Below are positions 14,622 through 19,407 of a DNA stretch of 64,000 nt, piece after piece. Location: positions 633,992 through 697,991 of the forward strand of contig NZ_CP101322.1 of the NCBI RefSeq assembly GCF_024300625.1, given 5' to 3'. The notes under the pieces were generated by a model. The model worked only from the letters and a program-made list of their open reading frames with translations. It was not told where the DNA came from and made no database searches. Every line of letters starts with the position of its first letter. Within the stretch, counting starts at the first letter, position 1. This stretch comes from Halovivax gelatinilyticus (GTDB lineage Archaea > Halobacteriota > Halobacteria > Halobacteriales > Natrialbaceae). The translations under genes and the position numbers were made by a program.

Positions 14622-15026
14622 ATGAACGACCTCGTCGAACGCGCGCGCGAGATTCAGCGAACCGCCCACGTTCCCTACTCCGAGTACCGCGTCGGAGCCG
14701 CACTCGAAACGGCCGACGGCACGGTGGTTACGGGCTGTAACCTGGAGAACGTCAACTTCTCGAACAGCCTCCACGCAGAGGAGGTGGCGATCGCCGAAGC
14801 CGTCAAGAACGGCCACCGCGAGTTCACCAGGCTGGCCGTCAGCTCCGACCGGCGTGACGGCGTCACCCCCTGTGGAATGTGTCGCCAGACGCTCGCGGAA
14901 TTCTGCGAGGCCGATCTCGTCGTCGGCTGCGACGAGGGTGACGACGAATCGGGCGAACCGATCGTTGCGGAGTACACCCTGGGCGAGTTGCTCCCGGCGG
15001 CGATGAATCAGGAGTACTTGGAGTGA
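14622..15026 (+). CDS. cdd: Cytidine deaminase
   Basis: A 134-residue zinc enzyme converting (deoxy)cytidine to (deoxy)uridine in pyrimidine salvage. The motif HAEEVA (His51 zinc ligand, Glu53 proton shuttle) and PCGMC (Cys84, Cys87 zinc ligands) are complete, and the N-terminus has the usual PYSEYRVGAAL. The last 180 nt (14847-15026) are repeated at 16681-16860 with about 16 mismatches. Its natural partner in salvage, a nucleoside phosphorylase, lies at 17382. Confidence 0.94.
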   Translation: MNDLVERAREIQRTAHVPYSEYRVGAALETADGTVVTGCNLENVNFSNSLHAEEVAIAEAVKNGHREFTRLAVSSDRRDGVTPCGMCRQTLAEFCEADLVVGCDEGDDESGEPIVAEYTLGELLPAAMNQEYLE

Positions 15027-15138
15027 GACGGTACTCGGTCGGGTGAATGTACTAGATCACGTTCTCGAGTCGATCCCGCAGAATCGTCCGGTGACAGCGC
15101 TTTTTCGCCGTGGACTCGAAGCACACCAGCGTGATCGA
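14847..15138. repeat. Left copy of a direct duplication flanking the island
   Basis: This segment holds the last 180 nt of cdd plus the 3' end of a convergent DUF488 gene. It is repeated in the same orientation at 16675-16966. Over the 180 cdd nucleotides I count about 16 mismatches (about 91 percent identity) and no gaps; the DUF488 part is also closely similar. Confidence 0.85.
15052..15138 (-). pseudogene. 3' fragment of a DUF488 gene
   Basis: Read leftward this encodes SITLVCFESTAKKRCHRTIL then RDRLENVI and a stop, matching the C-terminus of the complete gene at 16868-17326 (SITLVCFENTAKKRCHRTIL). The upstream part is missing: similarity stops at about 15138, where the island begins. It has no start and cannot be functional alone. 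Confidence 0.8.
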
Positions 15139-15256: not shown

Positions 15257-15556
15257 CTACTCACTTTTCGAAAGGCGCAGATCCGACGTTGCTGAGCCCT
15301 CGTGCAACACGAACGTCACGATACCAGCGATGGTTGTCACGCAATAGAGACTGGCTAACTGAATCGTTGACAGCGAGATCGGCCTCGTGTTGACAACTAA
15401 TATCATCAATAAGAACGCCCAAGTAAGTATGAAGAATATCCATCCATAAATTTCCATCCGATCTGCACTCCCTATGATTTCAACCAATATTAATAATATT
15501 AATGATACATATAGTATAATTAGCAACCCGAATATAGTGAAATCCGTAGCTACCAT
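15257..15556 (-). CDS. Small three-helix membrane protein, candidate halocin immunity/export partner
   Basis: A 99-residue very hydrophobic protein with predicted membrane segments at about residues 8-28, 37-55 and 62-84, and a short charged tail. It starts 58 nt after the stop of the upstream halocin-like gene in the same direction, so both could share a transcript. AT-rich codons set it apart from the surrounding chromosome. Small membrane proteins next to peptide toxin genes are often immunity or export factors; that is inference from position only. No known family was recognised. Confidence 0.55.
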   Translation of the reverse strand: MVATDFTIFGLLIILYVSLILLILVEIIGSADRMEIYGWIFFILTWAFLLMILVVNTRPISLSTIQLASLYCVTTIAGIVTFVLHEGSATSDLRLSKSE

Positions 15557-15614: not shown

Positions 15615-16556
15615 TCAGCACCTAGGCAGTTCTTCGTTAAAGAAGCCCTCCGAAACCCTCATTGAGTCATCATTGGCTACACTAAAGTCGGAGCAATTGA
15701 AATCCTGTTCCAGAAGCCAACTTTGTTCAACATCCTCTTGGACAGTTACTGTACTAGAGAAACAGTGAACAGTCGAAATGCCAGCAAGTCCTGCCCCAAT
15801 TAAACATGAACCACACGTAATTCGTGAAGGGTCAAAAATACAAGCACTACATCCCAACCCAGCAAAACCTGCAGTAGCTATCGCTAATGCCGTACAGCCC
15901 CACTTAGCATCAGACCCGATCTCAACATCGACCCTGCAACAACCGTCTCCACCATCGCCAGGCCCCTCAATTGGGTCAGTTGAATTGGAACCCAGATCAG
16001 TGGAGTCTGTTGCAATTGCATCGTCTCGGAACTCTCGATCCCGAACGCTAATCGTTCCATCATCACACGTTATTACCGAGATCTCATCCCAACCGAACAA
16101 ACCAGTGGCTCGCTTTCTGCGTTCATTGTTCGGAGTAGGAATTTTTCGGACGTGATGAGCAACCGTATTCTGTGGTAAATCTAGGCCCACTGTGTCGTTC
16201 CCGATCCAGATAACGACCATCTCTTCGTCAGCAACGATCTGTCGTCCTGGTATCGTTCTTTCAGCGTCGGCGACGATAAGATCGTAAAAGCCACCGGATT
16301 CCGTATTTGTAACTCGTCTCGCTTCTATTTGGTCTTCCAGAATCTGCCACCCACGTGACTCGTTATGGGATTCGATTTTTTGAAACGCATCGTCGGAAAA
16401 CGCATCTGTAAGGACACGCTGACGAGTATGGCCGTCGAATGATTCGACAGTCACGTCACTCGTATCATCAGCGCTAGTCTCTGCACTAGCTGAATTCACC
16501 GAACCGATTCCGATCGACGCCGAACCGATTGATTGAAGTATTTTTCTTCGTTGCAT
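15615..16556 (-). CDS. Halocin C8-like precursor (secreted, cysteine-rich C-terminus)
   Basis: A 313-residue protein. The N-terminus MQRRKILQSIGSASIGIGSV followed by NSASA resembles a Tat signal peptide with cleavage near residue 25. Residues about 30-200 form a soluble domain. Residues 206-313 hold ten cysteines (206, 207, 221, 236, 239, 248, 251, 265, 288, 313) and two Gly/Ala-rich hydrophobic stretches (ALAIATAGFAGLGCSAC and SCLIGAGLAGIS). This plan matches halocin C8 (ProC8): Tat signal, an immunity-type domain (HalI), then a C-terminal peptide that in HalC8 also has ten cysteines. A TATA-like element at about 16575-16585 fits a nearly leaderless start. The cleavage site is not evident. 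The assignment rests on architecture, not on a database match. Confidence 0.6.
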   Translation of the reverse strand: MQRRKILQSIGSASIGIGSVNSASAETSADDTSDVTVESFDGHTRQRVLTDAFSDDAFQKIESHNESRGWQILEDQIEARRVTNTESGGFYDLIVADAERTIPGRQIVADEEMVVIWIGNDTVGLDLPQNTVAHHVRKIPTPNNERRKRATGLFGWDEISVITCDDGTISVRDREFRDDAIATDSTDLGSNSTDPIEGPGDGGDGCCRVDVEIGSDAKWGCTALAIATAGFAGLGCSACIFDPSRITCGSCLIGAGLAGISTVHCFSSTVTVQEDVEQSWLLEQDFNCSDFSVANDDSMRVSEGFFNEELPRC

Positions 16557-16674
16557 ACATCCAATTTCAGCAACAACTATATAATAATTCCCATTGTGAT
16601 TTCTATTGGCCCTAACCTTCGGTTACTTCCTGCTCGTTCTCGACTATCGATAGATACAAACGGTCTCGTCAAAC

Positions 16675-16860
16675 ACTCTCGACCAGCGTGACGGCGTGAC
16701 TCCCTGTGGAATGTGTCGCCAGAGGCTCGCCGAATTCTGCGAGGCGGATCTCGTCGTCGGCTGCGACGAAGATGACGACGAATCGGGCGAACCGATCGTT
16801 GCGGAGTACACCCTGGGCGAGTGGCTTCCCGCAGCGATGAGCCAGGAGTACCTGAAGTGA
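16675..16860 (+). pseudogene. 3' fragment of cdd
   Basis: This encodes DQRDGVTPCGMC through EYLK and a stop, in frame with and about 91 percent identical at DNA level to the end of the intact cdd (14847-15026). The 5' two thirds of the gene, including the HAEE motif, are absent. Differences such as GEWLPAAMSQEYLK versus GELLPAAMNQEYLE show that the copies diverged in separate lineages or are old. Confidence 0.85.
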
Positions 16861-16966
16861 AACGGCGCTACGCGATCGATTCGAGGGCGGATTCGAGTTG
16901 ATCTCGTAGAATCGTCCGGTGACAGCGCTTTTTCGCCGTGTTCTCGAAACAGACCAGCGTGATCGA
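16675..16966. repeat. Right copy of the direct duplication flanking the island
   Basis: Partner of 14847-15138. It carries the cdd 3' fragment and continues into the intact DUF488 gene. Similarity ends just after GTGATCGA (16959-16966), the same point where the left copy (15131-15138) changes into island sequence. Confidence 0.85.
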
Positions 16967-18398: not shown

Positions 18399-18848
18399 TT
18401 ACGCGATCGCGGTGTCGTCAGGAACGACGGCGAATCCGAGCGTTCGAAAGTCGTCGGGATCGAAGGTGAAAACGTGCCCGATATCGTATTGAAGGGCGAT
18501 TGCACCGCCCAGGTGATCGAAGAATGCGATCTTCTGATCGTCGTACCGAACAAAACAGTCGTGTGCTGCGTCGAAGGTCGTCTCGTCGACGGGTAATACG
18601 TTGATCGTTTCCGAGGTACGAATCTCTTCCAGCGTCGAGACGGCCTGGCGGTGGCCCTTCCGATAGAGGATTACCGTCGCGAGTTCGGCGAGTACGTACC
18701 GGCTCGTGAACACCGGCCCGAACTGGTCGCCCCCCTGAATCACATCGAACACCGCCTCCGCCCGCGCATGGTTATCGTCGTCTTCGACGTAGGCCGCATA
18801 GAAACCGCCCGTATCGACGAATAAGGGAGCCGGTGTTCCCGAACTCAT
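18399..18848 (-). CDS. vapC: VapC-type PIN-domain toxin
   Basis: A 149-residue PIN-domain protein, expected to be a magnesium-dependent RNase of the VapC toxin family. The four acidic positions of a PIN active site are visible: Asp12 (LFVDTGGF), Glu55 (VLAELATV), Asp111 (FFDHLGGAIAL) and Asp130 (FTFDPDDF). It starts within the stop codon of the upstream winged-helix gene (4-nt overlap ATGA), the normal arrangement antitoxin first, toxin second. Targets are not predictable. Confidence 0.85.
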   Translation of the reverse strand: MSSGTPAPLFVDTGGFYAAYVEDDDNHARAEAVFDVIQGGDQFGPVFTSRYVLAELATVILYRKGHRQAVSTLEEIRTSETINVLPVDETTFDAAHDCFVRYDDQKIAFFDHLGGAIALQYDIGHVFTFDPDDFRTLGFAVVPDDTAIA

Positions 18849-19216
18849 GTGGGGTTGCCTACAGCCCCGCCGTACAGAATTTCATCGATACGTTCGGATG
18901 TGTCCGCTGGGTCACCAGCTTCGAAGGTCGTTCGTTCGAATATCGGATCATCGGTGTTCACGTCGGACGGTTTCGACGCGTTTTCGCCGTCGGCAAGCCA
19001 CCACACGACGGCACGACCACCGACCTTCGCCTTCTCGAGTGCGCCGTCGTCGGCCAGTTGCTGCAACCGTCGGTAGGCCTGCGACCGATCGAGGTGGTAG
19101 TGGTCAGCGATTGATCGTGCCGTCTGGAACGGGCGATCGGCACGTGAAAAGTACGCGAGAAGGGACTCGTCACTGACGGTCTGGGAGAACGTTCCACGAT
19201 CGTTCCGTTCGCTCAT
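18845..19216 (-). CDS. Winged-helix antitoxin partner of VapC
   Basis: A 123-residue protein with a winged-helix domain at about residues 15-75 (SLLAYFSRADRPFQTARSIA, then DRSQAYRRLQQLADDGALEK). A C-terminal acidic tail ends in ERIDEILYG, which may wrap around the toxin. It overlaps vapC by 4 nt. It is not an AbrB or RHH antitoxin, but haloarchaeal VapC genes are often paired with such HTH proteins. The direct repeats just upstream are probable autoregulatory sites. Start ATG 19216 is chosen because the upstream extension covers the promoter. Confidence 0.75.
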   Translation of the reverse strand: MSERNDRGTFSQTVSDESLLAYFSRADRPFQTARSIADHYHLDRSQAYRRLQQLADDGALEKAKVGGRAVVWWLADGENASKPSDVNTDDPIFERTTFEAGDPADTSERIDEILYGGAVGNPT

Positions 19217-19224
19217 ACCACTCA

Positions 19225-19265
19225 CTTCGTAGTGTAAGGTGTTAAGTTGTGCCCTTCGTAGTGTA
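19225..19265 (-). promoter_or_regulatory. Candidate operator: two direct repeats upstream of the antitoxin
   Basis: CTTCGTAGTGTA occurs at 19225-19236 and again at 19254-19265, identical 12-mers 29 bp apart in the same orientation, directly before the antitoxin start (19216). They bracket the expected promoter, so binding by the winged-helix protein would repress its own operon. Confidence 0.55.
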
Positions 19266-19407
19266 CCGGGTACGGAGCAGCACCTATCCCTTGCAACGGA
19301 AACCGACGACATCGAGTGGAGGATGTCGAACAGACGAATCGACCGCCACGCGACCCCCTATCCGCTCTCGGAAAAGCGACCTCGTATGAATCGGAATGGG
19401 CGACCAC

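Follow-up and report, generated by a model that had tools for sequence, protein, structure and literature searches.

Few halocins have been sequenced, and detection based on the halocin C8 domain model TIGR04449 (halocin_C8_dom, curated cut-off 24 bits) misses the gene described here and its relatives. In bacterial class II bacteriocin operons, a gene for a small secreted peptide is followed by a gene for a small membrane immunity protein, an arrangement to which the present cassette can be likened. A 2019 archaeal survey by Makarova and coworkers reportedly expands the halocin C8 family, and it may already list relatives of this gene. For the halocin C8 precursor ProC8, which comprises HalI and HalC8, the helix-loop-helix of the HalI segment has been reported to be essential for immunity, according to the title of Mei 2008 as it appears in the reference list of PMC11509114. 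In addition, HFX_0892 of Haloferax mediterranei is cleaved by a serine protease to give an active N-terminal two-helix fragment (PMC12893001). Here, we describe a locus of Halovivax gelatinilyticus that was analysed in a window of 64,000 nucleotides, which is the whole stretch of DNA studied (NZ_CP101322.1, positions 633,992 to 697,991). Its features, which are listed in Table 1, are best accounted for, at a probability of roughly 0.7, as a two-gene halocin-type bacteriocin cassette, in which a HalI-type precursor gene is accompanied by a candidate membrane immunity gene and which has been horizontally acquired and lost. The source genome is labelled G000, and the other G and L numbers designate the other genomes and loci compared.

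Table 1. Features of the cassette and its flanks, in window positions.
Feature	Position	Strand	Basis or remark
Flanking imperfect direct repeat, left: 3' part of cdd with DUF488-gene 3' end remnant	14846..15138	+	
99-aa predicted 3-TM protein, candidate immunity protein	15257..15556	-	starts 58 nt past precursor stop
Precursor CDS, 313 aa	15615..16556, stop included	-	ORF translation; homologues
Ten-cysteine C-terminal peptide, residues 206-313	15618..15941	-	Cys count
Cys core C-x14-C-x2-C-x8-C-x2-C-x13-C, residues 221-265	15762..15896	-	best conserved block
Gly-rich linker GPGDGGDG, residues 198-205, abutting first Cys	15942..15965	-	relatives' linkers
Remaining soluble N-domain, residues 103-190, beta-rich, with conserved WIGNDT motif	15987..16250	-	alignment; AF2
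HalI-like segment, residues 33-102, helices predicted at 42-54 and 56-67	16251..16460	-	hhalign; AF2
Tat-like signal, residues 1-30: RRKIL, hydrophobic stretch, SASAE	16467..16556	-	inspection; RR invariant in 12 relatives
TATA-box-like TTATTATATAG, 20-31 nt 5' of ATG, putative promoter element	16577..16587	-	sequence
Flanking imperfect direct repeat, right: 3' part of truncated cdd with 3' end of intact DUF488 gene	16680..16966	+	

A sequence-only reading of this DNA had proposed an open reading frame whose product starts with a Tat-like signal, continues as a soluble domain, and ends in 108 residues that include ten cysteines, and this was borne out on the minus strand. Translation gave an intact frame with an ATG start and no internal stops, and the plus-strand reading of 15615-16556 contained many stops. 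By inspection, the N-terminus MQRRKILQSIGSASIGIGSVNSASAE follows the twin-arginine plan, and the precursor runs from MQRRKILQSIGSASIG...SASAE through a soluble acidic middle part to the Cys-rich end. The RR motif was invariant in the alignment of 12 relatives, and none of the Tat models reached its cut-off with the precursor in a search with curated models. In the AlphaFold2 (AF2) model, the pLDDT was about 65-90 over residues 41-100. Many relatives also carry a Gly-rich linker, such as PPGGGSSEC, GPGGGGGC, and PGDGGGGC, and this linker is proposed to be the region of processing, where cleavage would take place. The position of TTATTATATAG fits a leaderless haloarchaeal transcript. Searches of NCBIfam, Pfam, PADLOC, and PHROGs returned nothing specific for the precursor; a match to TafE covered residues 1-42 only, that is, the signal, and was set aside.

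Among 391 genomes of the class, full-length relatives were found in G101 of the same genus (56% identity), Natrialba (42%), and Natrarchaeobius chitinivorans (27-30%), together with more distant ones, and a 12-sequence profile gave strong full-length matches in about 20 genomes. Many weaker matches to this profile represented the Tat signal only and were excluded from the relatives. A search of genome contigs recovered 0 relatives with the single protein as the query and 3 with the alignment. No relatives were found in viral contigs, in plasmids by single-sequence tblastn, or in the PDB by sequence search with the family profile.

The plan of ProC8, an immunity domain followed by a halocin, had been suggested for the protein as a whole; support was found for its architecture and for a middle domain homologous to HalI, and none for assigning the C-terminal peptide to a halocin C8 subtype. 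For this comparison, both families were split into an N-domain, beginning about 30 residues past the RR, and a Cys-rich C-domain, which were then aligned using hhalign. With family profiles from which the signal had been removed, the N-domain matched that of the ProC8 family at 94.9%, with an E-value of 4.5e-8 and a score of 52.9 over 70 columns. Of 200 column shuffles, 199 scored no higher than 12.1, the remaining one (score 130 over 4 columns) being set aside as an edge artefact of hhalign, and the reversed control gave 16.7. N-versus-C cross comparisons gave 0.1% or less, and HMMER, used in either direction, picked up proteins of the opposite family with scores above those of shuffled decoys. 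The relationship emerges only at the level of the family profile: the window protein alone gave a nonsignificant E of 0.24 against the ProC8 N-domain profile, and the close trio alone reached 43.8% with the ProC8-family N-domain by hhalign. The full A1 profile matched the N-part of L037 (in G004), which we take to contain the halocin C8 sequence itself, at E 1.2e-7 with the signal included. Because the hhalign comparison was conducted without the signal, the possibility that the N-domain match reflects the Tat signal only was ruled out. At the family level, these profiles show kinship between the middle domain and the HalI portion of halocin C8 precursors. The approximately 70 aligned residues include both predicted helices, and this two-helix segment probably corresponds to the helix-loop-helix of HalI that is reported to be essential for immunity.

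The C-terminal region contains 10 of the 11 cysteines of the precursor, at residues 206, 207, 221, 236, 239, 248, 251, 265, 288, and 313. Cysteine accounts for 0.74% of residues in the neighbouring genes, from which 0.8 would be expected per 108 residues (binomial P of at least ten, ~1e-8), and the enrichment is not a matter of chance because all ten are conserved in the closest relative, G101 (56% identical). Identity to G101 was 68% in the Cys core, 51% in the N-domain, and 30% in the downstream membrane protein. The spacing within the core is near-palindromic (14, 2, 8, 2, 13), and its inner cysteines C5 and C6 (239 and 248) are always both present or both absent, with both gone in one subgroup. 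In the alignment, C207 and C288, and no others, are missing from the Natrialba relatives. Extra cysteines beside the core were present on both sides in 15 of 23 relatives, on neither side in 7, and discordantly in 1, with a Fisher P of 3e-5 that overstates the significance because of the kinship of the 23 sequences. Thus, the loss and gain of cysteines in symmetric pairs, together with the symmetric spacing, suggests nested disulfides, which may lace a helical hairpin in the core. In the AlphaFold2 model built with 4 sequences, the pLDDT of the Cys-rich part stayed mostly below 50, and the domain modelled by itself gave 40. With the full model, Foldseek and VIA-align returned only unrelated folds (best E 0.59, best Z 4.2), and the peptide had no detectable relation to peptides of known activity in curated families, the PDB, or hhalign comparisons.

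Profile comparison with the halocin C8 family did not support the proposed subtype. TIGR04449, which gave matches above its cut-off in 42 of the 391 genomes, did not match the precursor even at E <= 10, and the C-domain matched the halocin C8 C-domain at 2.3% by hhalign, with a score of 17.2, the highest null score being 15.4. The difference from halocin C8 in Cys spacing and tail length, which had been noticed in the sequence-only reading, was evident from the frameworks: CC-13-C-14-C-2-C-8-C-2-C-13-C-22-C-24-C in the window peptide and C-2-C-7-C-3-C-7-C-13-C-7-C-8-C-8-C-5-C in halocin C8. On these sequence grounds, we place the precursor outside the halocin C8 peptide family. The sole TIGR04449 match in the source genome lies elsewhere, at G000:C1:2075990 (L124:2783-3709, about 2.076 Mb); it is a protein of 308 aa, and its Cys framework is unlike those of the window peptide and halocin C8 alike.

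Several alternative explanations have to be weighed against a bacteriocin precursor with a peptide of its own. The spacing CxxC...CxxC is typical of metal sites, and Tat carries folded cofactor proteins, so that the protein could be exported by Tat to bind metal or to serve as a structural component of the cell surface, with CxxC-x8-CxxC forming a zinc or iron-sulfur site and with no antimicrobial role. However, L010, L011, L022, L104, L105, and L126 have lost exactly one Cys from each CxxC with the rest kept, which disfavours a metal site because a four-Cys site is destroyed by such a loss, and the Gly/Ala-rich hydrophobic surroundings and the HalI-like domain ahead also argue against this explanation, which we consider unlikely. 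It is likewise improbable, and slightly more so, that the peptide truly belongs to the halocin C8 family and has diverged past profile detection; the related N-domain, the same architecture, and the presence of ten cysteines in each would be in line with such divergence, whereas the failure to match TIGR04449, the low hhalign value, and the different framework speak against it.

A further question is whether the antagonistic part might be the helices of the N-domain rather than the Cys peptide, as for HFX_0892, given that the precursor likewise has an N-terminal two-helix segment in the AF2 model. The homologous HalI segment has, however, been reported for immunity and not for killing, as far as the title of Mei 2008 in PMC11509114 tells, and the Cys core is better conserved than the N-domain in G101 (68% versus 51%). 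We therefore give very little weight to this explanation and prefer the reading in which the Cys-rich peptide of a two-gene cassette is the active part.

Beyond the sequence-only reading, we observed a downstream membrane gene, flanking repeats, and the AT-richness of the cassette. The 3-TM protein encoded downstream is homologous to the neighbour proteins in G101 and Natrialba. To compare loci, a TM neighbour was defined as an ORF of 45-160 aa on the same strand within 300 nt downstream, with at least 2 TM segments by simple hydropathy, and those found had 2-4. Such a neighbour was present in 11 of 20 relatives and 10 of 25 halocin C8-domain genes compared with 5 of 116 control ORFs, giving Fisher P values of 1e-7 and 9e-6, respectively, which overstate the significance as related sequences are not independent. 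The remaining 9 of the 20 relatives have no TM neighbour by this rule, and this is also the case for genuine halocin C8 loci, such as L037. Immunity is the simplest reading of the downstream gene, and, given this association, its product is likely a second immunity protein. At another site of the source genome (L125:2760-3101; G000:C1, about 2.896 Mb), we found a gene for a 113-aa multi-TM protein with 36% identity over 66 aa to the cassette membrane protein and saw no precursor beside it; it is possibly an orphan immunity gene.

The cassette is AT-rich, with a GC of 0.42-0.48 and a GC3 of 0.41-0.51 compared with a GC3 of 0.76-0.86 in the neighbouring genes, and its relatives are AT-rich as well. 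The flanking repeat copies, of about 290 bp, are 91% identical over ungapped blocks of 186 nt and 74 nt, and they are nearer to each other than either is to any congener, indicating a recent duplication within this lineage. In the congener G043, the site is empty, with glmM-cdd-DUF488 uninterrupted, and in G101 a related cassette lies on the opposite side of cdd. These features are consistent with recombination having brought in an allele that carries the cassette. Inserts at the glmM-cdd junction differed among congeners (L091, L121, and L123): they were of the cassette type in G101 and comprised two membrane-protein ORFs in G208, and a HEAT-repeat-like gene adjoins cdd at this junction in G071. 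Elsewhere in the window, a gene for a PIN-domain-like protein (18399-18848, minus strand) overlaps an upstream one for a winged-helix-like protein (18845-19312, minus strand), and on inspection this pair looks like a toxin-antitoxin system.

The two-helix domain was also encountered in other contexts. In 40 further loci that were picked from the profile search, a joint profile placed it above every decoy in 26, and the cargos that follow it were of different Cys-rich or Gly-rich types with diverse Cys patterns. At five two-gene loci (L129, L138, L139, L143, and L165), a Tat-HalI-like protein of approximately 200 aa is followed at -1 to +2 nt by a separate ORF of 175-188 aa that encodes 6-7 Cys but lacks a recognisable signal, and it is possible that the product of this ORF is exported piggyback on its HalI-like partner. 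At L136, L145, L150, L153, and L158, we observed Tat proteins whose Cys-poor cargo has an extended hydrophobic segment, rich in Gly, around LLPEPGSTAxG, and a neighbour of 2-3 TM segments is present at four of these loci. The five perhaps represent another halocin-like class. As a tentative generalization, which we put forward as a speculation below even odds, the HalI helix-loop-helix domain could be a general, exchangeable module for Tat export and latency in a large polymorphic class of archaeal bacteriocins rather than an immunity protein reserved for halocin C8. It would then precede several unrelated Cys- or Gly-rich peptides in different haloarchaea, sometimes as a separate gene with a signal-less toxin-like neighbour that is perhaps exported piggyback, and the small multi-TM neighbours would provide dedicated immunity.

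Taken together, the precursor is best read as belonging to a class of haloarchaeal bacteriocins that is modular and moves horizontally. In the mechanism that we propose, the 313-aa precursor would be exported in a folded state by the Tat pathway, as its RR signal implies, and cut by an extracellular protease near the Gly-rich linker ahead of Cys206, releasing a peptide of about 108 residues that is hydrophobic and rich in Gly and Ala. The 45 residues at its centre may form a helical hairpin held by the disulfides Cys221-265, 236-251, and 239-248, as the spacing and the paired loss and gain of cysteines would have it, and by analogy the peptide could enter or perturb the membranes of related haloarchaea. 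The N-domain probably keeps the peptide harmless within the precursor and forms part of the self-protection, to which the 3-TM protein would likely add a second immunity protein, and the cassette would be gained and lost horizontally. Provided that the HalI-like domain stays constant while the peptide varies, haloarchaeal bacteriocins should be findable by the pro-domain together with a small membrane neighbour, and the role of HalI in latency, export, or immunity becomes a testable question.

The comparison with described systems defines the place of this cassette. Class II bacteriocins differ from it in having a double-glycine ABC or Sec leader instead of a Tat signal and by the large folded pro-domain found here, and the two are not homologous as far as compared. 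HFX_0892 (PMC12893001) shares with it a secreted haloarchaeal precursor with presumed activation by extracellular proteolysis, but its active fragment is N-terminal, and the likeness drawn here is one of description. The relatives in G101, Natrialba sp. SSL1, N. hulunbeirensis, and N. chitinivorans have the same whole architecture and Cys core; those of G101 and Natrialba also have the downstream membrane protein, whereas the hydropathy criterion detects no TM neighbour for the N. chitinivorans copy and the Natrialba copies are without C207 and C288. Compared with ProC8 (L037), the C-terminal peptide is unrelated by profile and has another Cys framework, it comprises 108 residues with a tail of about 48 residues against 76 residues in halocin C8, and the locus adds a Gly-rich linker and an adjacent 3-TM gene, the latter being absent from L037. 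Both are nevertheless single precursors with a Tat-like signal, a related HalI-type N-segment of approximately 70 residues, and a Gly/Ala-rich C-terminal end with ten cysteines, and the present precursor, which shares the HalI-like pro-domain and carries another Cys-rich peptide, probably works like ProC8.
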